A DNA stretch of 64,000 nt from Halosimplex rubrum (GCF_013415885.1 NZ_CP058910.1:4216001-4280000); one strand, 5' to 3'; positions 8,568 through 26,980 are shown, counted from the stretch's first letter. A program made the numbers and translations. Notes: generated by a model not told the origin, from the sequence alone.

Positions 8568-8586
8568 CCGGGTGCGAGAATTGAAC
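8568..8586 (+). repeat. Putative attL: 19-bp copy of tRNA-His 3' end
   Basis: CCGGGTGCGAGAATTGAAC here matches 26910-26928 (CCGGGTGCGAGAATCGAAC) at 18 of 19 positions, in direct orientation. The right copy is the T-loop/T-stem/acceptor 3' end of the intact minus-strand tRNA-His. Beyond the repeat the left copy no longer resembles a tRNA, as expected for the orphan half created by site-specific integration. Inference: the left end of an integrated element. Confidence 0.65.
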
Positions 8587-8972
8587 TGGAACGGATGGTT
8601 CGCCCACTCCACCCTAGTCGCCAGCGACATATCGCTCGCCACCTACAACGGGATACTCCTCTGTGACACCAGTACATATCCAACCAAGAGGACACACTCC
8701 GACTGAGGGGATGCCATCCGCACCGCCCGCGCGGATAGTTGCCCGTGCAGGCGACTGTAGTGAACGCGAGCCCACCTCGCCCTTTCAGTCCATCAGGGTC
8801 GTAGTTGGGTTCACTGGTTTGGCCATTGGTTGGTCAAGTGTGTGGTGACGGCCCGCCCCGCTCGCCGCTTGCCGCCCTCCGCTTGCTCACGGCTCCCTTC
8901 GGTCGCCGTTCGCATCGAGGCGCTCCCTACGGTCGCGCCTCGCTTCGCTCGCGACCGACTATTCCGGGCATG

Positions 8973-8990
8973 CGGCGAGCAAGCTCGCCG
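8973..8990. repeat. Perfect inverted repeat upstream of RPA-like gene
   Basis: CGGCGAGCAAGCTCGCCG forms an 8-bp stem with a 2-nt centre and is flanked on both sides by TTCCGGGC. It ends 12 bp before the ATG at 9003, so it could be an operator or a hairpin in the leader of that gene. Function is inferred only from position. Confidence 0.5.
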
Positions 8991-9002
8991 TTCCGGGCTA
9001 AA

Positions 9003-9608
9003 ATGCAGGTCCCCTCGCGCCAGCGGTTGGACAGACGCCAGTCCTCGGACAGGGAAGCACGGACGCGCGAGGTGGTCGGGTTACAGACGCGATACGCCCA
9101 GGAGGAGCCCCCTGAAGATCCACGAACCAAGCTGAGTCAGGAGCAATTGGCGGAGGTCAATGAGCGCGCTGCACAGATAGTTGAAGAGTTGGATGGACGC
9201 TCCAGGGCGGGGGCGGCGTATCGACTCGCCAAAAAGGTCGCCGAAGGCGTGGACATGCTGAACGCGGCGTTGCTGGTCAAAGAGGAATTGCACGCATCCC
9301 CAGCGGTTCCAGTCCCGATCGAGACGCTCGAGGAGGTGCCTCGCTCGACGGTGGACATCGAGGGTGAAATCGTGCAGTTATGGGAGCCGAATAACGCGAA
9401 GATTCAGTCGGTCGGACTCATTGAGGACGACTCGGGACGGACGAAGTTCACCATCTGGGAGCGAAGCGGGCAGCCGTGGGTAAGCGAGGGGGAGCGCGTG
9501 CGGTTGCGAAGCGTCGAGAAGAGCTGGTACGAGGGGCGTGTCTCGGTGGCCGTGACAGGCTGGTCGGAAATCGAGTTGCCCGAGCGCGAGCGGTGGTGGA
9601 CCGAGTAG
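9003..9608 (+). CDS. RPA-like OB-fold single-stranded DNA-binding protein (island copy)
   Basis: 201 residues from ATG 9003; upstream in-frame sequence is repeat-derived and excluded. Residues ~35-105 are helical and charged; ~110-195 form an OB fold with 'TVDIEGEIVQLWEPNNAKIQ', 'VGLIEDDSGRTKFTIWERSG' and 'SVEKSWYEGRVSVAVTG', very like the OB domain of the RPA large subunit at 34224 ('VDIKGEVTELWEANSDAVAQ'). It lacks the zinc finger of that protein. Such short RPA relatives are common on haloarchaeal plasmids and proviruses, fitting a replication or DNA-protection role for the island. Confidence 0.8.
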   Translation: MQVPSRQRLDRRQSSDREARTREVVGLQTRYAQEEPPEDPRTKLSQEQLAEVNERAAQIVEELDGRSRAGAAYRLAKKVAEGVDMLNAALLVKEELHASPAVPVPIETLEEVPRSTVDIEGEIVQLWEPNNAKIQSVGLIEDDSGRTKFTIWERSGQPWVSEGERVRLRSVEKSWYEGRVSVAVTGWSEIELPERERWWTE

Positions 9609-9618
9609 GGCGCGAACT

Positions 9619-9631
9619 CTCTTTGTTTTTT
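9619..9631 (+). terminator. T-rich transcription terminator
   Basis: CTCTTTGTTTTTT lies 11-23 bp after the stop codon of the RPA-like gene. A poly-T tract without hairpin is the usual archaeal intrinsic terminator. Confidence 0.55.
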
Positions 9632-9911
9632 GCGTGCCGGACCGGCCCAACCCCAACCTCCCCACCCTCCGCTCCGTGCTCGTACCTGTGCGCGCAGCCA
9701 CGACCGTTGTCGGCTGGTTTCGGTCGCTCGTTTGACTGACTGTGCCGTTCGGCGCGCTTCTCGTGGCCGAGTCAACGGGACACTTTATGGCCTCAGGTGT
9801 AACCGCTCCTCGCGCGTACACAGGACGATTCAACCGGGGGACTGCATGTAACCGAAATTCCAAACCGATATCTCATACGTAATATCAACCCAGTATTGTA
9901 GAAATGAAAAC

Positions 9912-9919
9912 AAATATAT
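9912..9919 (+). promoter_or_regulatory. TATA box for surface-protein gene
   Basis: AAATATAT sits ~29 bp upstream of ATG 9944, the spacing expected for a leaderless haloarchaeal transcript. It supports 9944, not 10003, as the original start of the next gene. The rest of 9632-9911 holds no gene that I can support. Confidence 0.5.
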
Positions 9920-9945
9920 GTAACCAGTAAGCGTGTGGATGTAAT

Positions 9946-9992
9946 GGGGCACTGGGCCGAATCGGGGCACTGGGCCGAATCGGAGCACTGGG
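9946..9992 (+). repeat. 18-bp tandem repeat (2.6 copies)
   Basis: Two identical 18-bp units (GGGGCACTGGGCCGAATC at 9946-9963 and 9964-9981) and a diverged partial third (9982-9992). Read in the frame of the downstream surface protein they encode repeated Gly-Ala-Leu-Gly-Arg-Ile, forming a hydrophobic signal-peptide-like run. Confidence 0.9.
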
Positions 9993-10002
9993 GTGTGTCC
10001 TC

Positions 10003-12783
10003 ATGTTGGTACTGGCAGCGATTCCCCCCGTTGTGGGTGGTACGACCGGATCTGCGACGATCGGGAATGCAGGTAACGAGGCGGCGCTCGCCGGCGCGGG
10101 CAACGTTCCGTCGGGGCCGCCGGCCGCGCTGAAAGTCGAGGCCGCGGCGGCGATCGACGACGCGAGCGTCGAGAAAGAGCGGTTCGCGTCGGCGCGCGAT
10201 CGCGCGTTCGAGCGGATCAACGGAACACTCGACGACTATCGCGATCCCGTGCGGCTAGCGTCGATGGAGTCGTTCACTGACGACGCGGTCGGCGTGCAGG
10301 CGCTGGCGAAACTCGCCCGCTCGGAGGCGAACGGCACCTCGCTACGGGCGAGTCGCTACGTCGCCTTCGCGGACAACCGGACGACCTACCGGACGATCCT
10401 CGACGCGCGACGGGCACTGAATCAGACCGAGGGCGAACTGGACAATCAGGGGCTGCGCCGGAGCGCCGAGGCACACTTCGACAACGCCCAACGGCAGTTC
10501 GACCGCGCACAGCGCCGACTCGACCGGGCGAACAGGTCGGACGGGCGGCAAGCGATCAGTCAGTACGCCCAAGCGATCCGGGCGCTGCGGACGAGCTGGC
10601 AGCAAGCACAGCAATCGCTCCATATGATCGATCGGGAGGTTGACCCCAGCGTGGCGATCGTCAATCGCGCAGACCCGATCCGAACCGGCTCTGTGGGAGT
10701 GAACCGAAGCGTGAGAGTGCGGTTCTCGGACCCGCGACCGTGGACGCTCGGCAATCTCACCGTGTACGTCGACGGCGAACAGCGCCGTTCACAGCCGGTC
10801 GATCAACTTCGAACTGGACCGATGGAGAATCGAACACTTGGCGTGCCCGTGCGGCTCTCCGATCGCGTGGCGAACGTCACTGTCGTTGTCAGATACACAG
10901 ACGTGAAGCTTGGTCGGAACGGAGACGGCCAGACCACGCAGGCGAGCGCGACGCTGTTGCTCGACGGCGACGGGCTCGACGAGTCGACCGAGGGCACACT
11001 CGGGACTGACCCGCTCGATCCGGATAGCGACTCAGCCAAAACCGACCGCGACGAGAGCGACGACGGTGTGATCGACGGCCACGCGGACTTCGACCGCGAC
11101 GGCCTCGGCACGCTCGCGGAGTTCGACCTGAGGACCGACCCGCTCGTTGCGGACACTGACGGGGACGAATTGTCGGACGGCAACGAGACATCGGTGACAC
11201 GAACTGATCCGCTAGCGGCGGATACCGACGACGACGGCACGGGTGACGCGCAAGAAGATCCTGACGGCGATACCCTGTCAAACGCCGAAGAACTGGCTGT
11301 GGGGACTGACCCGCTGTATGCGGACATCGATGGTGACGGGCTCGACGACGCCGCGGAACTCGCGAACGGAACGGACCCGCTGAACCCGGACACCGACGAC
11401 GACTCACTGGCCGACGGTGACGAGCTACAGGCGCCGTTCGAGACGGACCCGCTCGATCCGGACACGGACGACGACGGCGTCTTCGACGGCAACGAGACGT
11501 TCACGACGACGACCGGCAACGAGACGCTCGGTGCGACCGTCGACATCACCGGCGAGGGCAACGTCGCCGGAACGACGACCGTCGAGGAACCGACGCACGT
11601 CCGCTACCAGGACGAGTACACGCCCAACGCGTCGGTCGCACCGTTCGTCGACTTCGAGTCGCAGGCGAACTTCTCGCGAGCGACCCTCACCATCGCCTAC
11701 AACGAATCGCGCGTCGCCAGTAGCGAGGGGAACCTCTCGATCTATCGGTTCAACGAGAGCGCCCAGCGCTACGAACACGTCGAATCGACGGTCGACCCCG
11801 ATTCGAACACGGTCACCGCGACGACCGAGCACTTCTCGACGTACACGGTCTTCGACGACCAGCAGTGGCTGCACTACCTCCAGCACCGCAACGACATCCT
11901 CTCGCTGCGGCCCGACGGCACGAACACGGAACGGATCGCCAACTGGACGTTCGAGTCGATGCCCTCGTCGATCGGCGCGAGCAACTGGACCTGCAACGTC
12001 GAGGACCGCGGCGGCGGGTTCAAGGACCAGCCCGCCGACGGCGGCTGTGAGATCGAACCCGACAAGGACGCCATCCGGGTGTGGGAGAAGACTAATCGCC
12101 AGCGGTTGTTCAACCGCACGACCACCTTGCCCGAGGACGGTCCGCTGTTCGTGAAGGTCAACGTCACCGCCCACATCCAGAGCAGCTGGTCGCACGCGGC
12201 GGCGGTGCTGTCGATCGACGCTGGCGACGGCGAGACCGACATCTACCGGCTGGAGAGCGATTACGATAGTGGCTCGAAAACCAAGACGGTCGTCCGACGC
12301 GTGAATATCTCCGAACACGCCGGCGAGACGGTCACCGTGTCGCTGCGCGCAGATGCTCGCCACACGGGCGGCGACAACTCCTGGCTGCGCGCCCACTACA
12401 TCGACTTCGAGCAAGCTACCGAAGGTGTCGCCACACGCGATTCAGACGGCGACGGCATCCCCGACTTCCGCGAAGTGAGGGGCGTCCCGCTCGCGAACGG
12501 ACCCACTGTCACGCTCGACCCGTTCGACGCGGACACCGACGGCGACGGCCTCGAGGACGGCGAGGAAATCAACCTCGACGCCCGGGTCACCCAGGAACCG
12601 CCCAACAGTCAGGCCGTCGTCAGTGGAGGGATAATCGAGAGGAAACACTCTGGATGGCGGTCTTTACCGACAGCCCAGAACACGACCCGTCGAAGGTGCC
12701 GTCTCGGTTTGGCCTTTCTCAGGCCGAACGAATTCGGGCTGCCACAGCAAAAACAGCGGTGCATGAACTTGGCCATCATCTGA
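10003..12783 (+). CDS. Thrombospondin type 3 repeat surface protein, disrupted at both ends
   Basis: About 926 residues in frame. Residues ~1-230 are a helical region with a weak signal sequence at the first ATG. From ~325 to 500 there are repeated DxDxDG-type calcium loops ('DPLVADTDGDELSDGNE', 'DPLNPDTDDDSLADGDE' and others), i.e. thrombospondin type 3 repeats. Beta-rich domains follow (~515-800), then a final calcium loop ('DPFDADTDGDGLEDGEE'). The 5' end looks shifted by one base relative to ATG 9944, and after ~residue 875 the frame turns basic while another frame encodes a metalloprotease. Probably a once-secreted, calcium-stabilised surface protease/adhesin now a pseudogene, or expressed as fragments. 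Confidence 0.75.
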   Translation: MLVLAAIPPVVGGTTGSATIGNAGNEAALAGAGNVPSGPPAALKVEAAAAIDDASVEKERFASARDRAFERINGTLDDYRDPVRLASMESFTDDAVGVQALAKLARSEANGTSLRASRYVAFADNRTTYRTILDARRALNQTEGELDNQGLRRSAEAHFDNAQRQFDRAQRRLDRANRSDGRQAISQYAQAIRALRTSWQQAQQSLHMIDREVDPSVAIVNRADPIRTGSVGVNRSVRVRFSDPRPWTLGNLTVYVDGEQRRSQPVDQLRTGPMENRTLGVPVRLSDRVANVTVVVRYTDVKLGRNGDGQTTQASATLLLDGDGLDESTEGTLGTDPLDPDSDSAKTDRDESDDGVIDGHADFDRDGLGTLAEFDLRTDPLVADTDGDELSDGNETSVTRTDPLAADTDDDGTGDAQEDPDGDTLSNAEELAVGTDPLYADIDGDGLDDAAELANGTDPLNPDTDDDSLADGDELQAPFETDPLDPDTDDDGVFDGNETFTTTTGNETLGATVDITGEGNVAGTTTVEEPTHVRYQDEYTPNASVAPFVDFESQANFSRATLTIAYNESRVASSEGNLSIYRFNESAQRYEHVESTVDPDSNTVTATTEHFSTYTVFDDQQWLHYLQHRNDILSLRPDGTNTERIANWTFESMPSSIGASNWTCNVEDRGGGFKDQPADGGCEIEPDKDAIRVWEKTNRQRLFNRTTTLPEDGPLFVKVNVTAHIQSSWSHAAAVLSIDAGDGETDIYRLESDYDSGSKTKTVVRRVNISEHAGETVTVSLRADARHTGGDNSWLRAHYIDFEQATEGVATRDSDGDGIPDFREVRGVPLANGPTVTLDPFDADTDGDGLEDGEEINLDARVTQEPPNSQAVVSGGIIERKHSGWRSLPTAQNTTRRRCRLGLAFLRPNEFGLPQQKQRCMNLAII

Positions 12784-13010
12784 GAGTTGAGGAAGCAGAA
12801 CCATACGATGCAGCACACCTGTACGAAATATACAGTGGTGCACAGAATGACTCGACTCCAGAACAGGTCGAAGACCGATTCGGAATTCCCCGCAAACAAT
12901 GGAGTGTGATGAGCTCTGGCGTCAATGACATCAATTTCGTTCCACCAACAGGGGCAAACTATACTGCGTTCAGTATCGAAGAACTGCTCACAATTCGTGA
13001 TCCGGAATGA
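12654..13010 (+). pseudogene. Metzincin-like metalloprotease domain, frameshifted from upstream gene
   Basis: 118 residues from ATG 12654. It carries a zinc-protease helix 'AVHELGHHLRV' (HExxH) and a possible Met-turn ('WSVMSSGVND') ~55 residues later. Protein-like sequence in this frame extends upstream past the ATG ('REETLW', from ~12636), and the preceding calcium-repeat gene loses sense at the same place. The simplest reading is that one gene encoded repeats plus protease and was broken by an indel or deletion around 12625-12640. Its stop overlaps the next ATG (ATGA). Confidence 0.7.
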
Positions 13011-13519
13011 ATCTTCGGAAGCTGCTACTAATGCTGACGGTTTCGCTGGTCTTGATAGCTGGTTGTACGTCTCAATCAAGCCCGACCCCCTCTGTTACCG
13101 AGAGCCTGACTGACAGTGGCGAAGGCCACGACACAAACGCTGGCGACTTGAGTATGTCAACCCAACATCTGGTCACAAAGAATGGGACGTTCGAGTATCA
13201 AGCTCGGATCTCTTTAGATTTCTACATCGAAGATCGAACGTTTTCGAATGTTACTCTGTGTCTCTACAACGAGGAGGGGAGAGTCTTAAATTCGACTGTT
13301 ATTGGAGATTTCAGTTCGCCGGTGGATCACGAAATAGTGCGAATATCTGCGAACACCACCCCGAAATATGTTGTCGCAGATCATATCGGTTTCCACCAGT
13401 ACGAGAAGATGCAGGTTATGTTTCTAGTTCGCAAGCCGGACGGATTCACCTCCAGCTATTCGTACGACGCGATTGAGTTTGACTATCCGAGGCCAAATCG
13501 ACCGGAAAAGTGTCTCTGA
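13007..13519 (+). CDS. Small secreted lipoprotein
   Basis: 170 residues. The N-terminus (MNLRKLLLMLTVSLVLIAGC) is a signal peptide with lipobox LIAGC, so Cys20 should be lipidated and the protein anchored outside the membrane. A Ser/Thr/Pro-rich linker follows, then a beta-sandwich-like domain with several N-glycosylation sequons. It overlaps the protease fragment by ATGA, so it is co-transcribed with it. No specific function is recognised. Confidence 0.85.
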   Translation: MNLRKLLLMLTVSLVLIAGCTSQSSPTPSVTESLTDSGEGHDTNAGDLSMSTQHLVTKNGTFEYQARISLDFYIEDRTFSNVTLCLYNEEGRVLNSTVIGDFSSPVDHEIVRISANTTPKYVVADHIGFHQYEKMQVMFLVRKPDGFTSSYSYDAIEFDYPRPNRPEKCL

Positions 13520-13778
13520 GAAGGTCCGGCGAATGTCTTGGCGTTAAGTTGTCGTTTTTACAAGCCGCACTCGGTCGGTGGATGCTTCTCAAGTAGCCTG
13601 CGGAAGAGGGCGTCATACAACTGTTCACACACACTCGTTTCTTCTCGCCCTCAGTTCGCTCAGTACAGGCTCTCAGAACAGGCCGTTCTTGTCCCCGAAT
13701 CCATCTCGCGAGCCAGATCGAACGCCTTTCGCGAGAGGCTGGCGCTATTTCGGGGCGAAATAAACTCTGACTCACGGG

Positions 13779-13943
13779 TCACGAATCCCCGATCAGATGG
13801 CCACACGGGACCGCCCGACGATCGGCCGGACCGCGTAGTTGGACCCCGAGCAGCTCACGGCCGCACTGCGGACACCGCTGGGGCAACCCCTCAGTCGAGG
13901 ACGAACAGTAGTCCTCCGGCTGACCAACAATTTCGTTCGTCAC
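13779..13943 (-). CDS. Small CPxCG zinc-finger protein
   Basis: 54 residues, GTG start at 13943 with Shine-Dalgarno GGAGGGG about 9 nt upstream. Contains 'RCPQCGREL' and 'RAVPCGHL', giving a Cys2-CysHis zinc site as in the abundant haloarchaeal CPxCG-related µ-proteins. These are often regulatory or protein-interaction modules. It is the only supportable gene in 13520-14157. Confidence 0.72.
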   Translation of the reverse strand: MTNEIVGQPEDYCSSSTEGLPQRCPQCGRELLGVQLRGPADRRAVPCGHLIGDS

Positions 13944-14157
13944 AGACTGGCCCCTCCGTGGGCCGCTGTACCAGCGTGCCTTCCGCCGAGGAGCTCAACC
14001 GCGATTCTCACAGTGTCTGATCGCGAGTCGTATCGCACGTAGCCACCACATGGATTAATGACACGTAGGTATAAAAAACCTCATTAAATAATGTTTCTAA
14101 TCACATGAACTTATTATTGGAACCTGATAAGACCCCGCCCGTCGATGTAGGGGCAAC

Positions 14158-14418
14158 GTGGCCAATCGTCGTACGCCGCCGGGGTGGATGCAGTTGCCGA
14201 TAGACGATCGTATCCTCGAATGTCTCTCGTCGTCGGGGTTGATTCTCTCGCCGTCGGTCATCGCAATCAACATCGACAAGTCTCGGGACGAGGTGAATCG
14301 TCGACTGACGACGCTGACCGACAAAGGATACGTCGAGCGCGTTAAACGGGGGTACTACCGGATCACTGAGTTGGGCGAGCGGTACTTGCAGGGCGACCTG
14401 GACGACGAATCCGACTAG
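14158..14418 (+). CDS. PhiH1 repressor-like winged-helix regulator
   Basis: 86 residues, GTG start. 'DDRILECLSSSGLILSPSVI' and 'DEVNRRLTTLTDKGYVERVK' followed by 'GYYRITELGERYL' are the helix-turn-helix and wing of the PhiH1-repressor family common on haloarchaeal viruses and islands. AT-rich DNA upstream (14060-14120) could hold its promoter and operator. Likely controls island genes. Confidence 0.85.
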   Translation: MANRRTPPGWMQLPIDDRILECLSSSGLILSPSVIAINIDKSRDEVNRRLTTLTDKGYVERVKRGYYRITELGERYLQGDLDDESD

Positions 14419-14470
14419 CGGCTGGAAGTGGCTGCGGAGAAGGTCTCTTATGAGCCGGCGGTGAAATCGG

Positions 14471-16624
14471 TTATCCCGAATACGCTCCGAGGGTCGCGTC
14501 AGTGGTCTCGGCGAGCCACTGGCGAATCTCTTCTCGGTCCCATCCCAACGGTGCAAGGACGCTCTCAACGGCGCGGACGAGTTGGGTCTCGTAGTACGCC
14601 GTGTCGTAGCTGTCGATTCCCTCGTGGGCGAGTGAAACCCGATCGCGCGAAGACTTGTCGTCGTCGACGACGATATACGCGATCTCCTGGCCGGGATGGA
14701 TGTCTAGACCCTGGTCGCGAGCGCGTTCGAGCGCCGCGACGGTGTGGGTGTACTGCGTGTAGGCCTCAACCGGTTTCGAGATACGGATCCGCTCGGCCAG
14801 CCGATCGGGGTCGACCCGGCCGGCCCGCAGCCGTCCGATCGCCGCGTGGAGCCGTTCCAACACTGGTTCGGATGCTCGCGTTTCATCGAGCCGGTCGAGA
14901 CAGTCGCGCTGGACGCGCTCGACGAACGACGGTGTCGACCGTTGGCGTGCCTCGATGCCGCGGATCTTGAACTCTCCAGAGTCGGCCAGTCGGCCGAAGT
15001 ACTTCGTCAGCGCGCCGGCCGGGTCGTCGCGTCGCGGGACGAACGCGACCCAGTCGTGGGCGGCCTCGTATTCGAGACGGATCCCCACACTGTCGGTAAT
15101 CTCAGCGGCAAGGGTATCGAGATCCGTTCGCTCCCCGTCCGGGACATCCGGTGCCGGCCGCACCCAGATCGAATCGACGATGCCGTGGACGACCTCCCAC
15201 CCACCGGCTTCCAGCCGTTCTTTCGCCGTCAGCAGGATCTCCCGGGCGAAGGCGTTGATCGCCTCGTGGCACTCGATCCGCCCGAACTTGGCGTTCGCGA
15301 AGCCCTGATAGCCGAAGCAGGCGACGAGGATCCACTTCAAGGCCTCCGAGCGGCCTTCGAGTGCGGCCAGGCGGGCCTCGTCGGGGTCCTCGGCTGCACG
15401 CTCCTCGCGGATGGCCGCCTTGATCGTATCGCGGTCGTCGATGATCGGTTCGAGGACGTCGACGAGATATCCACGCTCGTCGCAGATCGCGTAGTCGAGC
15501 CCGGGCACGTCGGCGCGGTCGCGATGGCAGTCACAGCGGATCACGTCGGGGGAGACGTTTCGGGTGGAGATGATGTTCGGATAGAGGCTCGAAAAGTCGA
15601 GTTCGTGGACATTCTCGTGGACGCCCGCGTCGGGGGCGAAGATGAACCCGCCGCGGTCGGCGTCGTGCAGCGTGGCCATCGGCTTGAACAGCTCGTGGCG
15701 CCAGGAGTTCCAGGGGACGAGGACGCCACGGGCGGCCGCCTCGCGGACCTGGATCGCCGTGAGGACGGTGCCGATCGACGCCCAGGCGAGTTCCTGGACG
15801 GGCTTGTGCGAGCGCCCGACCAAGTCAAGGACGCCGTCGAGGTTGGTCTCGTCGTACAGGAACGTCGCCGACTCGTCGACGATTGCACGGCCGGGCACGT
15901 TGTACCGCGCCGGTGAGTGACCCACGCGGCCGTAACTCGTGTAGGTCGACTGGCCGGCCAGTTGCTGGTAGTCGACGCCGGGCCACCGACTTAGCGTGAA
16001 CTCGTCGCGGCCGGCTTGGTCAGCCATGCTATAGAGGGTGGGGACGATCTCGGCCGTCGAGCAGACGAGCACATCGGGATTTTGGTCTTCGACGGCGATC
16101 CCGACGGCGTCGAGGATCGTCGCCGGTGAGCCGGTGACGGTGTCGCCGTCGACGGTCAGCGTCTCGTAGGCCCCATCGGTCGTTTCGGGAACCGGGACCG
16201 ACAGCGAGAGGGTGGTCAGATCGGTCTCGGGTGTCGGGTCGACGCCGCGTTCGAGACAGTAGCGAAACCCGCGGGTGAAATCCACGTTGTAGCAGGCCAG
16301 CTCGCCCACGGGGTAGGCGTCGAGCTGGCGAGCCTGCCGGGCCAGCGACGTGACGCGGTCGACGTGGCAGGCGTCGACGGCCAGCAGGCGTTCGGCCTCG
16401 CGGCGAAAGCCCGGCCGTCGCTCGACGACCTCGACACCGACGACGTCCGGGTGGCGCTCGTAAACCCGGCGCAGGCGGGTGAGGTCGATCTCCGCCTCGG
16501 CATCCCGGGGACCGACGAAGAATCTGGGCGTGTAGTCGTCGACGACGGTGGGATCGGCGCCGTCGTCAGTCGCCGTCCATTCGAGCACCCGGCCGTCGTC
16601 GCAAAAGTCGAAAGCGAACGGCAT
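14471..16624 (-). CDS. polB2: PolB2-type family B DNA polymerase with altered catalytic motifs
   Basis: 717 residues. Motif A 'DFSSLYPNI' (343-351) is intact. The motif B region is 'LKWILVACFGYQGFANAKFG' (~429-448), not the usual KxxxNxxYG. Motif C reads HGIVDS (480-485) where active enzymes have YGDTDS, so the first metal-binding Asp is Ile. The exonuclease I motif reads LSLSVP (139-144) where LSFDIE is expected, losing both acidic residues. This fits the archaeal PolB2 group, described as inactivated or very weak and linked to DNA damage responses. It is last in a three-gene operon, 5 bp after the small DUF8156-like gene. Confidence 0.9.
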   Translation of the reverse strand: MPFAFDFCDDGRVLEWTATDDGADPTVVDDYTPRFFVGPRDAEAEIDLTRLRRVYERHPDVVGVEVVERRPGFRREAERLLAVDACHVDRVTSLARQARQLDAYPVGELACYNVDFTRGFRYCLERGVDPTPETDLTTLSLSVPVPETTDGAYETLTVDGDTVTGSPATILDAVGIAVEDQNPDVLVCSTAEIVPTLYSMADQAGRDEFTLSRWPGVDYQQLAGQSTYTSYGRVGHSPARYNVPGRAIVDESATFLYDETNLDGVLDLVGRSHKPVQELAWASIGTVLTAIQVREAAARGVLVPWNSWRHELFKPMATLHDADRGGFIFAPDAGVHENVHELDFSSLYPNIISTRNVSPDVIRCDCHRDRADVPGLDYAICDERGYLVDVLEPIIDDRDTIKAAIREERAAEDPDEARLAALEGRSEALKWILVACFGYQGFANAKFGRIECHEAINAFAREILLTAKERLEAGGWEVVHGIVDSIWVRPAPDVPDGERTDLDTLAAEITDSVGIRLEYEAAHDWVAFVPRRDDPAGALTKYFGRLADSGEFKIRGIEARQRSTPSFVERVQRDCLDRLDETRASEPVLERLHAAIGRLRAGRVDPDRLAERIRISKPVEAYTQYTHTVAALERARDQGLDIHPGQEIAYIVVDDDKSSRDRVSLAHEGIDSYDTAYYETQLVRAVESVLAPLGWDREEIRQWLAETTDATLGAYSG

Positions 16625-16629
16625 TGCGG

Positions 16630-16929: not shown

Positions 16930-16931
16930 CG

Positions 16932-17756: not shown

Positions 17757-17817
17757 TCCGTCGACGTGTTGGTCCGGGTCGCCGGCGACGTGCGAGCGGT
17801 TGTGGTGTTGTTATTGA

Positions 17818-18795: not shown

Positions 18796-19526
18796 TAAAC
18801 GAACGCACGAATCAGGCAGCAGTCGCGGTTCAGGATGTCCGGAAAACATACCAGGTGGGAGAACCCGTCCATGCTCTCGACGGAGTGTCTCTCAAGTTGA
18901 AGCGTGGTTCATATACTGCCGTCATGGGTCCGAGCGGTTCAGGGAAGAGCACGCTGATGAATCTCATCGGGTGTTTGGACACTCCGACGGAGGGGCGAGT
19001 TATCGTCAACGGGAAGGACGTAACTCAACTCTCCAGTAGAGAACGAACACGGCTACGGGGTAGCGAGATTGGGTTTGTCTTTCAGACCTTCAACCTAATG
19101 CCTCGACTGACCGCCCAGGAGAACATCGTGCAGCCAATGGTCGCCCAGAAAGTTTCACGAAGTGAGCGAAATGAACGCGCGAAGCAACTCTTAGAACGTG
19201 TTGGACTCGGAGACCGCGCAGGTCATCGTCCAAACGAACTATCAGGGGGTCAGCGCCAGCGGGTCTCCATCGCTCGCGCCCTGGCCAACGACCCAGCACT
19301 GATTCTCACCGATGAACCGACGGGGAATCTGGACTCGAAAACTGGAGCCAATATCATGGAACTGTTCAGTGAACTCCACGAGGGTGGCAACACGATTCTT
19401 ATGGTGACACATGATCGCGATATCGCCGAGCACGCCGATAAGATCATCCACCTACTGGACGGTGTCATCGAACGCGAAGAGACCGTTGACTCGCCTGTAC
19501 GGCCAACAGTTGGGGGTGGTGAGTAA
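18789..19526 (+). CDS. ABC transporter ATP-binding protein, MacB/LolD type
   Basis: 245 residues from ATG 18789. Walker A 'GPSGSGKST', Q-loop '[18 protein letters not shown]', signature '[15 protein letters not shown]', Walker B '[13 protein letters not shown]' and H-loop 'VTHDRD' are all intact. The '[10 protein letters not shown]' form is typical of the MacB/LolD/FtsE subgroup, which powers extrusion or mechanotransmission through an FtsX-like permease. Its stop overlaps the permease start (TAATG). Substrate unknown: peptides, lipoproteins or lipids are possible. Confidence 0.93.
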
Positions 19527-20806
19527 TGGACCTCTTTGAGAGTCTACGGATGGCATGGCGGACGATTCGCGGGCACCGTCTCCGTTCGACGCTGACCACA
19601 CTCGGCGTCGTCATCGGCATTGGAGCGGTTATCACGTTTGTCACATTAGGTGCGAGCCTTCAAGGCGCGATAATTAGCGACGTGGCTGCAGGTTCTTCGA
19701 ATGACGCGGGGGAAGGTTCTTCGGAGATGACAGTTGTGAGTCAACTGCAAAGCGCCGATGGCGGACCGGGAGAGGGTGGCGGCGGTCCGGCCGTCTTCAC
19801 CGAGCACGACATCCAACAACTCCAGGAGACAAAAGGCGTTGAAACGGTCGTTCCAGAGGGGAGCGTATCACTCTCAGGCGTCACATATAGCGGACAGTCG
19901 GTTGCACAATCAGCAATGACGGCGACGACGCCTGCCTACTTCAGCCAGACAGCGGGAAATTTCTCCGCTGGTGACCCCTTCTCACCCGGTGAACGGGAAG
20001 TCGTCCTGAACGAAGGTGCGGCGACTATCTTTGAGCAGAACGTCTCTGTTGGTGACTCCATCACAGTCATTCGGAGCGGTGGTGAGACGATTAACGCAAC
20101 AGTCGTCGGCATTCTCGAAGGCTCCAGCAGTAGCAGTGAATTCGGTTCTTCGGATGATAGTCCACCAGCCGAGATCTACGGTCCGACGGACCCGTTCCAC
20201 GACACCCGACTTGTAAGTCCAGCAACGGGAGAAAATCAGCGCGTCTACTCGCAACTGACTGTCGTAGCAGGTAATCACGACCAAGTTGACCCGGTCGCTA
20301 ACCGTGTCACAGATTACTTCACTGCTGACTCGGATGCGCAGGGGCTTCTCCCATCGTCGTACGAGGTGAGTGTTCAGACAATCGACGAGTCCGTCAAGCA
20401 GATGCAGAGCCTGGTGAGCACCTTCACCAGCTTCGTCACGGGCATTGCGGTCATCTCGCTCATTGTCGGCGCGATCGGTATCGCTAACATCATGCTCGTG
20501 AGCGTCACCGAACGGACACGCGAGATAGGAATCATGAAAGCCGTTGGGTTCCAGAACCGTGATATCCTTCAGTTGTTCCTCGTTGAGGCAGTTATCCTGG
20601 GGCTGTTCGGATCCATGTTCGGAATCATCCTCGGAGTACTTGGTGGGTACGGTGCGACGACGTTCCTCGCTCTTCCGTTCACCTTCCCGATAGAATGGGC
20701 AGGGATTGCCGTCGCCGTCGGGGTGCTCGTCGGTGTCATCGCTGGCCTGTATCCCGCTTGGAACGGCGCTCGAATCGACCCTATCGAGGCTCTTCGTTAC
20801 GAATAA
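19526..20806 (+). CDS. MacB/FtsX-family ABC transporter permease
   Basis: 426 residues. An N-terminal TM helix after 'AWRTIRGHRLRSTLTTLGVV', a large extracytoplasmic MacB-type periplasmic-core domain (~45-290), then three TM helices in the FtsX domain with the typical 'VGAIGIANIMLVSVTERTRE' and 'IGIMKAVGFQNRDI'. C-terminus 'PAWNGARIDPIEALRYE' is the family hallmark. It partners the ATPase just upstream. No MacA-like adaptor lies next to it. Confidence 0.93.
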   Translation: MDLFESLRMAWRTIRGHRLRSTLTTLGVVIGIGAVITFVTLGASLQGAIISDVAAGSSNDAGEGSSEMTVVSQLQSADGGPGEGGGGPAVFTEHDIQQLQETKGVETVVPEGSVSLSGVTYSGQSVAQSAMTATTPAYFSQTAGNFSAGDPFSPGEREVVLNEGAATIFEQNVSVGDSITVIRSGGETINATVVGILEGSSSSSEFGSSDDSPPAEIYGPTDPFHDTRLVSPATGENQRVYSQLTVVAGNHDQVDPVANRVTDYFTADSDAQGLLPSSYEVSVQTIDESVKQMQSLVSTFTSFVTGIAVISLIVGAIGIANIMLVSVTERTREIGIMKAVGFQNRDILQLFLVEAVILGLFGSMFGIILGVLGGYGATTFLALPFTFPIEWAGIAVAVGVLVGVIAGLYPAWNGARIDPIEALRYE

Positions 20807-20958
20807 TATTCAAAAGCACCGTGTATTCAGAGTTTCTTACACCTGCAAGAACGCCTTACGGCCGTCACGGAAATATGCCGAAGTCTAGCCGAGCTGACGC
20901 GGTATCGAAGCTTTGCAACCACCGCACGGTCAGGTATCGGCATCGGTTAGGTGTATAG

Positions 20959-21972
20959 ATGTTCGGACTCGATCTCAGAAAGGGAATTATCGCTTTTCTC
21001 ATCATCATTGGAGTGTACGGAATATTATTTTCTTTCGCTGGGGTTGACCAGCTTAGTGCAGCGATCAAGAGTGCGGATCTGACACTCTTGTGTTCAGTGA
21101 TCGGTGCCATCTTCGGTTGGTTGATCGCCTGTTCAATGGCGCTGCGAACGATTCTCAACGCACTTGATGTCGATATTTCACGAATGAGAGGATTCTTTGT
21201 GCTCGTTGGAGCGATATTTTTCAACAATATCACGCCATTCGGTCAGGCAGGTGGCGAGCCAGTCACTGCTCGTCTGATCTCTCAGTCAACCGATTCAGAG
21301 TACGAAACCGGCCTTGCAGCCATAACCAGTTTCGACACGTTGAATTTTATCCCATCAACATTTTTCGCGGTGTCTGGTGTCGGTTACCTCTTTTTGACAT
21401 CTACGATACATGGGATACTGAGAATCGCAGCAATAGCGGTGGTTATACTTGCCGTTGCTGTGCCGTCATTCCTCTTCGTAGGGTGGCAAAGACGCGACAG
21501 ATTTACGCAAATAATCGTCTACAGGCTCACTCCCGTGCTCAAGATTGCCTCCCGGAAACTACCATGGGTTTCGCCTATATCTGAATCAGGGATGAAAGGT
21601 CGGATTGAAAGGTTCGTCAAATCAATTGAGCGAGTTGCGACGGATCGCTATAGCTTGGGACTGTCATTGAGTTATTCTACTTTAGGATGGCTGCTTCTGA
21701 TACTTGGGCTGTGGATTACATTTCGCGCCATTGGCCATGCTATCCCGATCTCTGTGGTCTTGTTCGCCGTTCCAATTGCGTCCATTGCTGGTGTGACACC
21801 GCTCCCAGGTGGCGCTGGGGCTATCGAAGGAGTGCTAATAGCATTATTGACAGTCCTATTGCCAACCCTCGGCGTTCAACTCATTACCACAGCCGTGATA
21901 ATATTTCGTGGTCTCAGTTATTGGATTCCCGTCCTTCTGGGCGGTGCGGTGACGAGTCTCTACCTTCGATAG
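20959..21972 (+). CDS. Flippase-like / LPG-synthase TM domain membrane protein
   Basis: 337 residues with about 8 hydrophobic segments. 'NNITPFGQAGGEPVTARLIS' and 'GVTPLPGGAGAIEGVLIALL' are the two conserved Pro/Gly signatures of the UPF0104/lysylphosphatidylglycerol synthase TM family (flippase-like domain, as in AglD relatives). Such proteins handle lipid-linked substrates at the membrane. It follows the exporter pair by 152 bp on the same strand, suggesting an envelope/lipid role. Confidence 0.88.
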   Translation: MFGLDLRKGIIAFLIIIGVYGILFSFAGVDQLSAAIKSADLTLLCSVIGAIFGWLIACSMALRTILNALDVDISRMRGFFVLVGAIFFNNITPFGQAGGEPVTARLISQSTDSEYETGLAAITSFDTLNFIPSTFFAVSGVGYLFLTSTIHGILRIAAIAVVILAVAVPSFLFVGWQRRDRFTQIIVYRLTPVLKIASRKLPWVSPISESGMKGRIERFVKSIERVATDRYSLGLSLSYSTLGWLLLILGLWITFRAIGHAIPISVVLFAVPIASIAGVTPLPGGAGAIEGVLIALLTVLLPTLGVQLITTAVIIFRGLSYWIPVLLGGAVTSLYLR

Positions 21973-22198
21973 CTGGTCAAAATATCTCCTTCCCGCAGAA
22001 GCGTTGCGGAGTTCGGGGCTCGAAATCCACGGAAGCGGCGGCGAAAGCGTCTCGGTGGACGTGATGCATGACGCCTTCAAATAGGTCATGGACTACTCGT
22101 TGACTGGGACCTCGACATCGATGCCGAGGAAGTTTCCCTCGGTGATGTCAAGGAAGCGTGGATGCGGGAGATGAGTCCCTGCTTGGTCTTCGTTAAAG
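21973..22198. other. Unassigned junction region
   Basis: 226 bp between the flippase-like gene and the second promoter cassette. Short open stretches on both strands do not form a gene I recognise. It may hold remnants of sequence lost when the cassette was duplicated. Confidence 0.4.
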
Positions 22199-22344
22199 AG
22201 CTGAAAGTCTAGCAGATCAGAGCGAAACCGTTCTCGGCTTCGTTGTTGATCCCGGCGTTTTTTCACCTCTTCAGGCTCGTCGAATTTACCCCTAATTCTA
22301 TTTCGCTAACTTTTCGTGAGTAGTGAAGATGATTTTCCCGCTAT
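22199..22344 (-). pseudogene. 5' fragment of a paralogue of the 17818-18561 membrane protein
   Basis: The minus strand matches the N-terminal part of the 17818-18561 gene, including its AGCTGAAAGTCTAGCAGA block. The start codon position reads ATA instead of ATG, frames are broken, and similarity ends abruptly at ~22199. A decayed remnant, while the adjoining promoter region remains recognisable. Confidence 0.7.
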
Positions 22345-22580
22345 ACTACGGAGATACCACACGTAGAGGGTTCTCCTTTCGATTGATGACCGTCTCTGAA
22401 ATTTGGTGTATCTCCATATCAGACGTAGAAAGCATGCCTTGCCTAAAATCAGTGGCCTGGGAAGCAAGATCGTATTGTCCAGAATTCGGCGTTGTATAGC
22501 CATATCAAGCCTGTATTCGATACAACTGTCTCTATGGTTTATCTGCACCTGGGAGAAAGCGGCGACAAGATGATTGTGAG
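22199..22580. repeat. Promoter cassette copy 2
   Basis: Imperfect direct copy of 18416-18795. It contains GTATCTCCATATC (~22406) and GTATAGCCATATC (~22494) elements equivalent to those at 18627 and 18713, and reaches the small ORF starting at 22570, in the position held by the ABC ATPase start in copy 1. Confidence 0.78.
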
Positions 22581-22695
22581 CGAAACGGGTGCCTTGACGA
22601 AGCAATATGGGAATAGCGTCACATCCCAAGAAGAGCTATCTCGATTGTATCGAACTCCTGCTGAGAAGAGCATATTGATTTCGGAGAGAAAATGA
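22570..22695 (+). CDS. 41-residue ORF translationally coupled to GDPD gene
   Basis: ATG 22570 to TGA 22695, overlapping the GDPD start by ATGA. It starts where the ABC ATPase starts in the homologous cassette, and its opening residues (MIVSETGALTKQYG) faintly echo that N-terminus. It could be a leader peptide, a remnant of a lost ATPase, or chance. No family recognised. Confidence 0.35.
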   Translation: MIVSETGALTKQYGNSVTSQEELSRLYRTPAEKSILISERK

Positions 22696-23861
22696 AACTA
22701 ATCGGCCACCGCGGATTCGCAGATATCTTTCCTGGGAACTCAGAAATTGCATTCCAAAACATCCCCAAACACGCTAACATGGCTGAACTGGACCTCCGGC
22801 GATGTCAAAGCGGGGAGGTCGTAGTTCTCCATGATGGAATTGTAGATGCAACCGACTCCAGTGGTAGATTAGATGAATTTTCGGCCGATGAGTTGGCGAA
22901 TCTTAACGTCCACGAATCCGGACAGGGAGTTCCGACACTCTCCCGCGTTCTTGAGATCATTCCATCGAATGTCGGTCTCAACCTTGATGTCAAGGAAGTT
23001 GGGTTAGCGGAGGATGTGGCAGAAGCTGTTCAGGATTGGGACGCTCAAGTTGTAATTTCGTCGGCCTACAAGGAGGTACTTCAAGAGGTAAGGAGCGTTG
23101 ACCCGGACATCCCTACTGCGCTCATCTTCGCAATAAATCCAGAGAAAAACCTCAAAGAGGCTGAAAAATTGGGATGTACGCACGTTCAACCCCATTGGGT
23201 CATCAGTCTCTCCACGAACCTCATTGAGAAAGCACACGAGGATGATATGGGCGTCTTCATATGGACGGTGAATACGGATGTTGGTGCGCAAATTTGTCGA
23301 AAGTTGGGCGCAGATGGGATGATCTCTGATAGACCGATTTCTGTTGACCAACTCCCCTCACCATCTACACAAAGAGGGGAGATATTTGAGCAGGCCATAT
23401 TCCGGAAGTTCGGAGTTTTACTCCTTCCAATTGCGCTCAGAAGCGTTATGTATCCGTTTGTCCGGATCGGCGCTTGTATCCCTACCTCCGTGGAAAAATT
23501 TGGAACGATACTAATCAATGACTTCGGTAGTCGGCGTACCGGTTATATTCTGACAAAGGGCATTTCAGCGGCAATTTTCAATCCAACGACTCTTCTGCGG
23601 ACCGGGAAATCATGGACAATAGCGAATAACGGTCGGTGGAGGGAAGCATCGATTTTGAGACCTGTTCGACGGTTCCAATCCTGGATGCGAAAGCGAGGAA
23701 CGCCTCCTGTCCAATATACAGACACTGAACTAGCTACCAAAGGGAACAAGATCTGGAATAGGATTCAGAATACTGTTTTATTAGCATATGAATCAGTGAC
23801 CGATCGGCTCCACAATGATTCCCTGAGCAGGTCAACCACTACTGGTTGGTGGGAGCAATGA
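22692..23861 (+). CDS. Glycerophosphodiester phosphodiesterase-like protein with C-terminal extension
   Basis: 389 residues. The first ~230 form a GDPD TIM barrel: 'LIGHRGFADIFPGNSEIAFQ', 'AELDLRRCQSGEVVVLHD', 'LNLDVKEV' and 'VFIWTVNTDVGAQICRKLGADGMISDRP' without interruption of the fold. The canonical PENT motif reads PGNS, so one metal-ligand Glu is replaced by Gly and activity may be altered. Residues ~235-389 are a basic, partly hydrophobic extension not seen in ordinary GDPDs. GDPDs cleave glycerophosphodiesters from phospholipid headgroups. Coupled by ATGA overlaps to genes on both sides. Confidence 0.85.
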   Translation: MKLIGHRGFADIFPGNSEIAFQNIPKHANMAELDLRRCQSGEVVVLHDGIVDATDSSGRLDEFSADELANLNVHESGQGVPTLSRVLEIIPSNVGLNLDVKEVGLAEDVAEAVQDWDAQVVISSAYKEVLQEVRSVDPDIPTALIFAINPEKNLKEAEKLGCTHVQPHWVISLSTNLIEKAHEDDMGVFIWTVNTDVGAQICRKLGADGMISDRPISVDQLPSPSTQRGEIFEQAIFRKFGVLLLPIALRSVMYPFVRIGACIPTSVEKFGTILINDFGSRRTGYILTKGISAAIFNPTTLLRTGKSWTIANNGRWREASILRPVRRFQSWMRKRGTPPVQYTDTELATKGNKIWNRIQNTVLLAYESVTDRLHNDSLSRSTTTGWWEQ

Positions 23862-24559
23862 AGCTATTTTCTTCCACAGTAAGCCGAACGCAGAAGGTTG
23901 TAATTCTCAGTATAGCCGTTGCCGGTACTATCGCCCTATATCTGCTCTCGCATCAATTTCTCCCTAATTTATTAGATGTAACAACACTCCGTCAATGGAT
24001 CGATAGTTTTGGCATCTTTGCCCCGGCCATTTTCGTTCTGCTCCAAACTACTCAAGTGATATTTGCACCAATCCCTGGCCAGTTGCTAGCTTTGTCTGGT
24101 GGGTACGTCTTCGGGCCGTTTTATGGCACGATTTATAGCTTACTCGGTGTGGCAATTGGGAGCGGTATCGCGTTCCTCCTCACAAAGCGACATGGTCGCC
24201 CCGTCGTCGAACGGGTCTTTCACGAGGATATGATAGCTCGCTTTGACGGGTTTGTTGATCGAGTTGGACTCGTTGGATTTACTGCCTTCATAATGCTCCC
24301 TGGACTACCAGACGATGCTGTTTGTTTCATTGCTGGACTCACCGAGTGGCGTCTCCGAACATTCATGGTAGCGATCATTATCGGTCGTTTCCCCGCATAC
24401 GTTCTCACCGTCTACGCCGGGGGCGAATTTGCAAGTGGCAGATTTGTCGTAGGGGGAGCCCTTATCGGAGTATTGGTAGTGTTTTCAATTGTCGGGTATT
24501 TAAAACAAGATGCCATTCTAGATTGGATATCCCGCATAGAGAGGCGAATCCGACCCTGA
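23858..24559 (+). CDS. VTT/DedA (SNARE-associated) family membrane protein
   Basis: 233 residues from ATG 23858, which overlaps the GDPD stop (ATGA); GTG 23846 is a less likely start. About 5-6 TM helices with 'PGQLLALSGGYVFGPFYGTI', 'GSGIAFLLTKRHGRPVVERV' and 'LPGLPDDAVCFIAGLTEWRL', the conserved VTT core of TVP38/TMEM64/DedA proteins, now known as lipid scramblases or lipid-carrier recyclers. Coupling to GDPD supports a membrane lipid function. Confidence 0.88.
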   Translation: MKLFSSTVSRTQKVVILSIAVAGTIALYLLSHQFLPNLLDVTTLRQWIDSFGIFAPAIFVLLQTTQVIFAPIPGQLLALSGGYVFGPFYGTIYSLLGVAIGSGIAFLLTKRHGRPVVERVFHEDMIARFDGFVDRVGLVGFTAFIMLPGLPDDAVCFIAGLTEWRLRTFMVAIIIGRFPAYVLTVYAGGEFASGRFVVGGALIGVLVVFSIVGYLKQDAILDWISRIERRIRP

Positions 24560-24572
24560 AATGGAAATGAAT

Positions 24573-25505
24573 GGGCCTTGTTTAGACGCGTGATTTCACG
24601 GTCATGAGTGGCTGACGCTGAGTTCGATGTTTCTGACAGCGCATCTCAGGACGAGTTCGCGGAACTGACCGAACCACGTTCGAGCCCGAACGATCTCGCC
24701 GTATTTGCGGCGCAGCGCGAAAATGTGGATTCGGCGTTCGAGCGTTGATGGTAGATCGTATCATCTTGCAACGAGTTGTTAGCGATGCCGTGCCAGCCGA
24801 ATTCGCGGTGCTTGATCACGGGTTTAACGCCCTCTAAACGTAGTCTTTGGCGAAGGAGCCACCAATCGTAGCCTTTGTCAGCGGTGAGAATGTTCAGTTT
24901 GTCGAGATTGCGTTTGACCATCTGCCAGCCGATCTTCCAATTGTGCGATTATTTCATCGATAAATGTATAAAGAGTATCGAACCATTCTTGCAGTTCCTC
25001 AGAAGGGTCGTTTTCACCGCCTCGAACGTATAGTTCGTCCGTTTTGCGTAGTGTTGGCTGGCAGCTATCCGATCTATGCCAGTTGCGTCGATCGCTTGAA
25101 CATCGCCGAATCGTGCAACTCCACCGACAACCGCAGTAGGACGCGCCAGATACGCATTTCGAGATCCTGCTTGCGCGTACACACGGTCGTGAAATCAGGC
25201 AGATCAGTCACCACTAGGTCGAGTTTGGCGACAATGCCGTGCATCTCGTGGAGCACGTCCAGCAACCGCCGATACGTATGATCAAGATACTCGTGGAGGC
25301 CATGAATCGCCACAATCACCCAATCTGCGTAGCCAGTTTCACCCTCTTCGAACGCTGGACCCGGTTCGCCGACGGCGGCTTTTTGAGCAAGCGACACAAC
25401 CCGTTCGGTGAAGCGGCTGAGTTTGGTGGACACAAACTCGTCTTGCCGCTTCACTTCCTAGTAAGTTAGACATTTAGCCGCTCTTACTAGCGTCTAAACA
25501 CGCCC
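24573..25505 (-). mobile_element. Decayed IS5-like insertion sequence
   Basis: 933 bp bounded by inverted ends: GGGCCTTGTTTAGACGC at 24573-24589 and, inverted at 25490-25505, GGGCGTGTTTAGACGC (one-base gap and one substitution). It carries a multiply frameshifted transposase and sits directly against a truncated zinc-finger gene at 25506, which it probably interrupted. No target-site duplication is evident. Confidence 0.8.
24602..25454 (-). pseudogene. IS5-family transposase, multiply frameshifted
   Basis: Pieces in order on the minus strand: N-terminal ~105 residues (MKRQDEFVSTKLSRFTERVV...), then 'DVQAIDATGIDRIAASQHYA' in another frame, then 'LNILTADKGYDWWLLRQRLR' with 'YHQRSNAESTF', and finally 'ALRRKYGEIVRARTWFGQFR' in yet another frame to a stop at 24602. 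The DDE-region motifs are present but split by at least three frame changes and an internal deletion near 24940, so it cannot make active transposase. Confidence 0.85.
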
Positions 25506-25751
25506 GAATTCGAGTATTATCCATCAGAGAATGAAGGGCTGTACTGTTCAGACTGTGTCGAGTCCGGCGAGTGGCGCTCCACACCGTCGCTCAGTCGCGA
25601 AGAGAATCCACAGTGGAAGGGCGGGAAGCGAGTGCTCCCCTGTGACGTCTGCGGTGAGACGGTAGAGCGCTACCCGGGCAACGTGAACGATGTCGTCGTC
25701 CGCGGCGAAGCCTGTCGTCGTGAGTTTCTATCGGAATCAAATAATAAATAG
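25506..25751 (+). pseudogene. Truncated paralogue of the HNH/zinc-finger protein
   Basis: 82 codons from the edge of the IS to a TAG. 'EFEYYPSENEGLYCSDCVES', a Trp-Arg-Ser-Thr-Pro block, 'CDVCGETVERYPGNV' and 'ACRREFLSES' align with the middle of the 25986-26813 protein. The 5' part is missing at the IS boundary and the HNH domain is missing downstream. A broken second copy. Confidence 0.85.
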
Positions 25752-25985
25752 ACCGATCTGAGAACCCGCAATTTCGACTACCGCTTTGGGCGTAACTGTC
25801 CTCTTGGGAAGGCGCTGAGACAGCGAGATTTTTTCTCGCCCCCGGAGGGGTGCGGGCCCGCTTGAACTGTCCAATATCGACAATGAATCTCAATAATTCG
25901 AATGGTAGACGGCACAGAGTAGTATCGCAAACTCAGCGTTGGGCAGCTCGTTGTACCGAACGTCACGCTCGAAATCACTCCACGG

Positions 25986-26813
25986 GTGACAGCGGTGAGT
26001 GAAGCGACCTGCCCGACCTGTGACCGAGACTTCTCCTCAGAGCGAGGGATGTGGGTTCACCACAGTCAGGTCCATGACGAACCGCTCCCGAATCGAGAAT
26101 GTAGTCACTGCGGAACCGAGTTCCACTCGGAGTACGAGAAGGTCTACTGTAGCGCCGACTGCAGAGATGCTGCAGTCTCGTTCGTCGGTGCTGACAATCC
26201 CAACTACGAGGGGAAACTGGAGACCACGACGTGTCGACGGTGCTCAACCGAGTTCGAATACTATCCGTCGGAGAAGGAAGGGACGTACTGTCCCGAATGC
26301 GTTGAGTCGGCCCAGTGGCAATCGACACCTGATGTCACTGCGGAGGCGAATGGACAGTGGGGCGGCGGCAAAGAACGCGTTCACTGTGCCGTCTGTGAGA
26401 CGACGGTCGAACGGTGGCCGAGTGAAATTAGCGAGACGACGCTCTGTAGTGAAGCGTGCCGAAGAGAGTGGCTCTCTGAGGCGTTTCGCGGATCCGGTCA
26501 TCCGAACTGGAAAGGCGGCGGCAACGTCAAGTACGGGCCGGGCTGGCGTTCGGTGCGCGAGGCGGCACTCGAACGCGACGAGTACACGTGCCAGGTCTGT
26601 GGCGCCACTCGCGATGAACTCGGCCGCAATCCTGATGTCCACCATATCACGCCGGTCCGGTGGTTCGAGAATTCCGACGACCACGAACTTACCGACGCTC
26701 ACCAGCTCTCGAACGTGATTGCGCTCTGTAGTAGTTGCCACCGGAAGGCCGAGTTCAGCTCGATCGAGAAGGACGTACTTCGAGCTAAGCTCGCTGGTTC
26801 CGCCACCGAGTAG
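25986..26813 (+). CDS. Multi-zinc-finger HNH endonuclease
   Basis: 275 residues, GTG start (GTG 25995 also possible). N-terminus has a C2H2-like finger ('CPTCDRDFSSERGMWVHHSQ' then VH), then CxxC pairs at ~38, 57, 82, 97, 127 and 142. C-terminal HNH domain ~190-262: 'RDEYTCQVCG', 'DVHHITPVRWFE', 'NVIALCSSCHRKAEF', with the catalytic His-His, Asn and zinc Cys pairs present. A homing-type or defence endonuclease typical of haloarchaeal mobile regions. It sits ~95 bp inside the proposed right att site. Confidence 0.9.
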   Translation: MTAVSEATCPTCDRDFSSERGMWVHHSQVHDEPLPNRECSHCGTEFHSEYEKVYCSADCRDAAVSFVGADNPNYEGKLETTTCRRCSTEFEYYPSEKEGTYCPECVESAQWQSTPDVTAEANGQWGGGKERVHCAVCETTVERWPSEISETTLCSEACRREWLSEAFRGSGHPNWKGGGNVKYGPGWRSVREAALERDEYTCQVCGATRDELGRNPDVHHITPVRWFENSDDHELTDAHQLSNVIALCSSCHRKAEFSSIEKDVLRAKLAGSATE

Positions 26814-26907
26814 ACTATGTCAGAAATATTTTGATCAAGGAGTGGTTTTGGGTTTCAACACCCATGCGGATGATTCTGGGCGTTTTAGAAGTGTGAAATT
26901 TTTAAAA

Positions 26908-26980
26908 GTCCGGGTGCGAGAATCGAACCCGCGTCTCAGCCTCCACAAGGCTGAAGGATAACCACTACCCCAACCCGGAC
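26908..26980 (-). tRNA. tRNA-His (GTG anticodon)
   Basis: The reverse complement folds into a full cloverleaf: 7-bp acceptor TCCGGGT/ACCCGGA extended by an encoded G-1 paired with C73 (the tRNA-His identity element), D-arm GTGGTTA region, anticodon stem CAGCC/GGCTG around TTGTGGA (anticodon GTG), and T-arm with GGGTTCGATTCTC. No CCA is encoded and no intron is seen. Its 3' end faces left towards the island. Confidence 0.97.
26910..26928 (+). repeat. Putative attR within tRNA-His
   Basis: The 19 bp matching 8568-8586 (18/19). It covers the acceptor and T-arm 3' half of the tRNA, the standard target of tyrosine-recombinase integration, which leaves the tRNA functional. Confidence 0.65.

Follow-up and report, generated by a model that had tools for sequence, protein, structure and literature searches.

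Tyrosine recombinases are normally held responsible when DNA integrates at a tRNA gene. Archaeal elements with tyrosine integrases (SSV-, pNOB8- and SNJ2-type) use the 3' end of a tRNA gene and reconstruct the gene. The locus described here lies in a stretch of 64,000 nucleotides (the window), positions 4216001-4280000 of a 4.48-Mb haloarchaeal replicon (Halosimplex rubrum, NZ_CP058910.1), and its only site-tied gene codes for a zinc-finger HNH nuclease, which we call HNH-B. Two described systems are closest. The 52-kb island GI3 of Haloquadratum walsbyi lies at tRNA-His, with a phage-type integrase beside the tRNA and a 43-nt repeat (PMC3119063). In T-even phages, the segB gene is flanked by tRNA genes and its product targets their region, and MobE is an active HNH enzyme (PMC2988022). 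Our literature search, confined to an open-licence library, turned up no description of a link between an HNH gene and tRNA-His or tRNA-Gln in haloarchaea. We consider it fairly probable that the tRNA-His end of an 18.3-kb interval in the window is occupied by a homing element of one gene, which codes for a natural zinc-finger HNH nuclease, and that an island accreted there.

The ends of the interval are formed by the following features:
26907-26980, minus strand: intact tRNA-His(GTG), the target gene (ARAGORN); identical copies in several other genomes
8568-8586, minus strand: orphan tRNA-His 3' fragment, 18/19 (repeat search; 0 expected by chance)
8540-8567, minus strand: 28 bp beyond the orphan, displaced sequence that stands directly behind tRNA-His in congeners G003, G004, G005 and G007 (alignment)

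The 3' end of tRNA-His points left, into the interval 8568-26906, and a direct repeat of it is present at both ends. The 19-mer CCGGGTGCGAGAATCGAAC is exact at 26910-26928 and has one mismatch at 8568-8586; no further copy was found at up to two mismatches. The first-pass annotation, made from the sequence of the window, had reported this 18/19 repeat with an intact tRNA facing the interval and an orphan left copy, and all of this was confirmed, the repeat being unique and without a match in 100 dinucleotide shuffles. Moreover, the orphan together with 8540-8567 matched the tRNA-His 3' end and immediate downstream sequence of a congener over 47 bp (91%, E 4e-12), and it also aligned to G007, G003, G005 and G004. 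A chance repeat was ruled out by the shuffles and this alignment. Directly 3' of tRNA-His, these four genomes carry TCAGAAATTAAGTCCCTCAGGGGCTT or close variants; in the window, sequence of this type adjoins the orphan, and different DNA lies behind the intact tRNA-His. Since congeners carry behind tRNA-His the sequence that here lies beyond the orphan, the alignments confirm the ends of the interval as a true tRNA-His insertion scar with a displaced tRNA 3' end. In G005 and G007, an HNH-bearing stretch has the TCAGAAATTAAGTCCCTCAGGGGCTT-type sequence as its tRNA-proximal end, and 8540-8567 therefore appears to be an older element's end.

It is very improbable that the orphan is left over from a tandem tRNA-His 3' mini-unit, was carried off by a rearrangement and is uninformative about the island. 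Short units ending in a tRNA 3' copy do occur behind 16 of 51 HNH-negative tRNA-His genes, but the junction in the window is two-sided, with the congeners' tRNA-His downstream sequence after the orphan and other DNA after the tRNA.

At the tRNA end of the interval, the window contains:
25986-26813, plus strand: intact zinc-finger HNH nuclease gene HNH-B (Pfam HNH, PHROG 1271), convergent with tRNA-His
25491-25739, plus strand: truncated second HNH copy, approximately residues 84-166 (tblastn and hidden Markov model); longer in G002
26870-26909: block rich in adenine and thymine (AT-rich) by tRNA-His (composition), resembling the tRNA-proximal end of other HNH-positive loci

The open reading frame (ORF) of HNH-B ends 93 bp from the tRNA-His gene. 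In its product of 275 amino acids, a C2H2-type finger at the N terminus is accompanied by three Cys4 modules, which bear NPNY/HPNWKGG-like motifs, and by an HNH domain, which scored above the Pfam cut-off. Eight residues (H219, H220, N243, H252, C202, C205, C248 and C251) were invariant in 15 sequences, so the catalytic motif and the zinc ligands are intact. A sequence search of solved structures matched zinc-finger proteins, CTCF among them, and an HNH endonuclease. The AlphaFold model was weak (mean predicted local distance difference test score of 69), and its fold matches to CTCF arrays, the Cap5 HNH and IscB, all with E above 0.001, agree with a finger-plus-HNH reading and go no further. 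The AT-rich block is possibly the end of the element and a replacement terminator of the tRNA. Between or beyond the two HNH copies of the window or of G002, no second tRNA-His scar scored above shuffled sequence.

The position of the gene was the same in all copies checked across the order. A profile search of 393 genomes of this order gave ~80 full-length or long HNH copies, of which 70 were fetched and mapped and six more placed by coordinates (76 of ~80). All 76 checked copies, which belong to clade 1, lie just 3' of tRNA-His. The 70 mapped copies are all downstream of the tRNA-His 3' end, the distance to the nearest HNH piece being 54-249 bp; 59 are co-directional with the tRNA and 11 convergent, and none is upstream of tRNA-His or at another tRNA. 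A separate scan of one collection, overlapping with the 70, found 13 of 13 haloarchaeal relatives adjoining tRNA-His. Strong matches were confined to the order of the window (296-genome sample of the phylum), and phage and plasmid records held distant relatives only, with nothing near clade 1. Carriage of the gene by viruses or plasmids was rejected on this ground.

Within genera, the presence of the gene is patchy: intact, truncated, stop-bearing and absent copies occur, and many loci are HNH-negative. The conserved site and the empty alleles of a homing gene were thus both found (76 of 76 copies, the HNH-negative loci and a filled/empty pair), as was a cycle of invasion, decay and loss, in the form of intact to absent copies within genera. 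As a separate observation, third-position guanine-cytosine (GC) content was lower in the tRNA-proximal half of co-directional HNH genes (0.64 vs 0.76; 56 of 60 genes), and the convergent genes showed no such gradient.

Signs of insertion were found at individual loci. In four families (L183, L215, L173 and L110), the HNH gene is followed by an orphan tRNA-His 3' end, and the units, counted from the end of the tRNA to this orphan, have lengths between 957 and 1056 bp (957, 994, 1036 and 1056 bp); a further unit with an orphan is present in L063. Genus g26 provides a filled/empty pair, in which the sequence after the HNH gene in L183 aligns, from the tRNA 3' end on, for ~530 bp to the sequence behind tRNA-His in L086. 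Behind the orphan of L215 and L173 comes CTTC, with which the sequence after tRNA-His usually begins in HNH-negative genomes; in HNH-positive genomes, that place is taken by an AT-rich block. Convergent and co-directional copies occur inside one genus in three cases (g6, g12 and g38).

These data also bear on the idea that vertical descent has long kept the HNH gene beside tRNA-His, immobile and with a host role such as tRNA trailer processing or guarding of the site. Adjacency in every copy checked, the intact state of most copies and a tree that does not reject one origin per genus speak for it. It is nevertheless improbable in our view, as both orientations occur, the gene is absent or decayed in many genomes, tRNA 3' direct repeats surround units of ~1 kb, and a filled/empty pair exists.

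Several results weigh against mobility of the HNH gene. An orphan repeat within 1.5 kb was present in only ~4 of 77 HNH-positive loci, and insertion with duplication is documented for few HNH loci only. The convergent lineage spans several families, but approximately unbiased (AU) tests on a quick tree did not reject one HNH origin per genus in three genera (p-AU 0.27-0.37), and the well-supported branches of the tree force only one orientation change. Repeated horizontal invasion is therefore suggested, not proven. The orphan of the window sits 18 kb, not 1 kb, from tRNA-His, and HNH-B hence cannot be tied to the making of the scar at 8568-8586. Two further ideas were dropped. The base composition at the element end clearly differs from that of HNH-negative loci, yet it yielded no single strict motif; and HNH presence does not explain the T-arm variants of the tRNA, as HNH-negative congeners in g6 have the same tRNA.

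The remaining features of the interval and its flanks are:
7273-8388, plus strand: left flank, esterase; order relative to tRNA-His kept in G002 and G003
9018-17808: block with RPA-like gene, TSP3-repeat protein, small helix-turn-helix (HTH) ORF, PolB2 and RecA-like gene
14158-14418: ORF of 86 amino acids, listed in the first-pass annotation as a PhiH1-like repressor
14471-16624, minus strand: PolB2-type DNA polymerase (NF004418), inside the block 9018-17808
17810-24570: low-GC block with membrane protein, ABC/MacB pair, LPG-synthase-like flippase, GDPD and VTT-domain protein
24573-25480, minus strand: IS5-family transposase remnant, of which this genome and G004 have several copies
27362-28477, plus strand: right flank, DUF7347/DUF7351 gene; syntenic with G002

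The first-pass annotation had called the interval an integrated island of ~18.3 kb. The true tRNA-His scar and the variable interval bear this out in part; the single element is not supported, as the interior is a mosaic. The GC check that it had proposed gave 63% in 8568-17800 and 52% in 17800-26906, compared with 67% to the left of the interval and 70% to the right, and ORF scans recovered the PolB2 gene, the RPA-like protein, the insertion-sequence remnant (IS5) and the HNH protein that it had listed. Between the esterase flank and tRNA-His, unrelated fillings were found: 18 kb in the window, ~49 kb in G002 and ~16 kb in G003. The low-GC block has no match at the locus in congeners. The window locus and G002 have only 25506 onward in common (HNH copies, tRNA-His and right flank), and the HNH gene with ~1.4 kb around it is the sole interior part shared at the locus with a relative. 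One 18.3-kb element was ruled out, since the blocks carry separate histories; judged by its sequence, the interval is best called a composite accreted at a hotspot.

Two observations concern the left part of the interior. The block 9018-17808 has the same order on contig C44 of G007, with 80-86% identity, away from tRNA-His. A sequence of ~81 bp (8717-8797) has dozens of dispersed copies in this genome and congeners.

A conventional origin would be that an integrative plasmid or provirus entered tRNA-His via a tyrosine recombinase, a route that GI3 appears to have taken, and later lost its integrase, with the HNH gene as a separate resident at the same site. We regard this as unlikely, though less so than the vertical-neighbour explanation. 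The repeats are arranged as one would expect at an attachment site, the interior contains a PolB gene and an HTH ORF, and the 52-kb tRNA-His island of Haloquadratum, with its 43-nt repeat, does have an integrase (PMC3119063). Against it, no integrase, intact or with stops, was found in the window or in the islands of G002 and G003; the interior is mosaic rather than coherent, one block lies elsewhere in G007, and no empty site was found that corresponds to the whole interval.

The integrase was sought among the scanned ORFs of the window and by a genome-wide search for PF00589 with stops read through, neither of which gave a match in the window; a pseudogenised integrase was rejected on the latter. 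A casposon, suggested by PolB and HNH together, was dismissed, as the main ORFs scanned against Pfam and NCBIfam contained no Cas1. In no congener does tRNA-His adjoin the esterase flank directly, and the empty tRNA-His locus that the first-pass annotation had proposed to look for in relatives did not appear for the whole interval. Its finding of no integrase was borne out by these searches, but the tRNA junction can be accounted for without its explanation, an immobilised element or an integrase acting in trans. A better candidate agent is the HNH gene, because it is locked to tRNA-His across the order and is flanked by tRNA-His 3' repeats elsewhere. Beyond the repeat and the scar, the notable find is a zinc-finger HNH family that is dedicated to tRNA genes and probably represents a homing element.

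Starting from what was observed directly (the locus specificity, the direct repeats, one filled/empty pair in one genus and the mosaic interior), we infer cleavage, mobility, a repair route and the order of events in the window. The finger and the three Cys4 zinc modules of HNH-B would recognise DNA, and the HNH domain would cut. In a genome without the element, the predicted cut falls at the junction of the tRNA-His 3' end and the terminator, i.e. in empty alleles only. Repair of the break from an HNH-positive donor (through cell fusion, mating or uptake) would copy the gene exactly behind the tRNA, helped by 20-30 bp of tRNA 3' sequence at the far end of the element. The tRNA would be rebuilt and the target junction destroyed, leaving the host immune and an orphan tRNA 3' fragment on the far side. 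As the filled junction is altered and the orphan is without most of the tRNA, neither should be cut. One report describes microhomology-mediated end joining in Haloferax under enhanced self-targeting (PMC7521656), which makes such a repair route plausible. For the window, a convergent HNH-B may have inserted next to tRNA-His and so separated the tRNA from the end of an older element that belonged to another HNH lineage. The first 28 bp of this older element would survive at 8540-8567 beside the orphan, and the rest of the 18.3 kb would be DNA of several origins accreted at the hotspot.

A sister clade of the HNH genes (clade 2) scored ~190-255 bits with the clade-1 profile and was examined at 25 loci (L135-L154, L266, L267 and L269-L271), the one in the window's own genome included. 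All 25 genes lie directly 5' of a tRNA with an intron, read as tRNA-Gln(UUG), and are co-directional with it; the copy in the window's own genome is at G000:C1:4012351-4013076. ARAGORN without introns skips the tRNA-Gln linked to clade 2, and it calls a few of these genes Glu, Lys or Stop according to intron placement. Tandem tRNA-Gln 5'-like fragments stand between the HNH gene and the tRNA in L137 and L139.

Behind tRNA-His, the short units of the 16 HNH-negative genomes are non-coding, number one to three and are mostly 100-160 bp long, each ending in a tRNA 3' copy; many have an inverted T-arm and a strong hairpin. The genomes are L075, L076, L077, L082, L087, L090, L092, L096, L100, L203, L204, L212, L213, L217, L218 and L220. 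No such unit was found within 350 bp at any of the 77 HNH-positive loci. Moreover, L257 (G004:C1:5107000-5120500) has a divergent second tRNA-His in a cluster of 16 tRNA genes, which is reminiscent of the tRNA arrays of phages or plasmids.

A wider reading, which we judge to be evenly balanced, is that of a haloarchaeal zinc-finger HNH family in which each clade is dedicated to one tRNA gene, the 3' side of tRNA-His in clade 1 and the 5' side of the intron-bearing tRNA-Gln in clade 2. Clade 1 at least would be a mobile one-gene element that inserts into the tRNA gene and rebuilds it without a recombinase, and the tandem tRNA-His 3' units of HNH-free genomes would be its non-autonomous relatives or scars. 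If the HNH gene homes, a tRNA-gene island hotspot would be explained without an integrase. The family would then be a source of zinc-finger nucleases that evolved in nature and have predicted targets, and it would give an archaeal case in which intronless homing into an essential gene can be tested. Tractable species among the haloarchaea allow a direct test, namely Haloarcula vallismortis, which carries a clade-1 copy, and Haloferax as a transformable host.

Among known systems, the SSV-, pNOB8- and SNJ2-type elements differ in being recombinase-based, whereas the candidate agent in the window is a nuclease. The HNH proteins of haloviruses (PhiCh1, HFTV1, HVTV-1 and HCTV-16) share the finger-plus-HNH architecture over most of the length, but their identity to HNH-B is only ~27-42%. 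For the window island, GI3 is the nearest anatomical precedent, as it too runs from an intact tRNA-His to a repeat of the 3' end of this tRNA; the place that its integrase takes beside the tRNA is taken by the HNH nuclease gene in the window. Intronless homing in T-even phages is the nearest working analogy. The free-standing homing endonucleases of these phages are likewise lone nuclease genes in intergenic or tRNA regions, with empty alleles in relatives. They differ in being phage genes with cut sites hundreds to thousands of bp from the gene, whereas the HNH genes are chromosomal in different haloarchaeal families and always keep to a single tRNA gene, the 3' end of which is duplicated, and they encode an array of zinc fingers.

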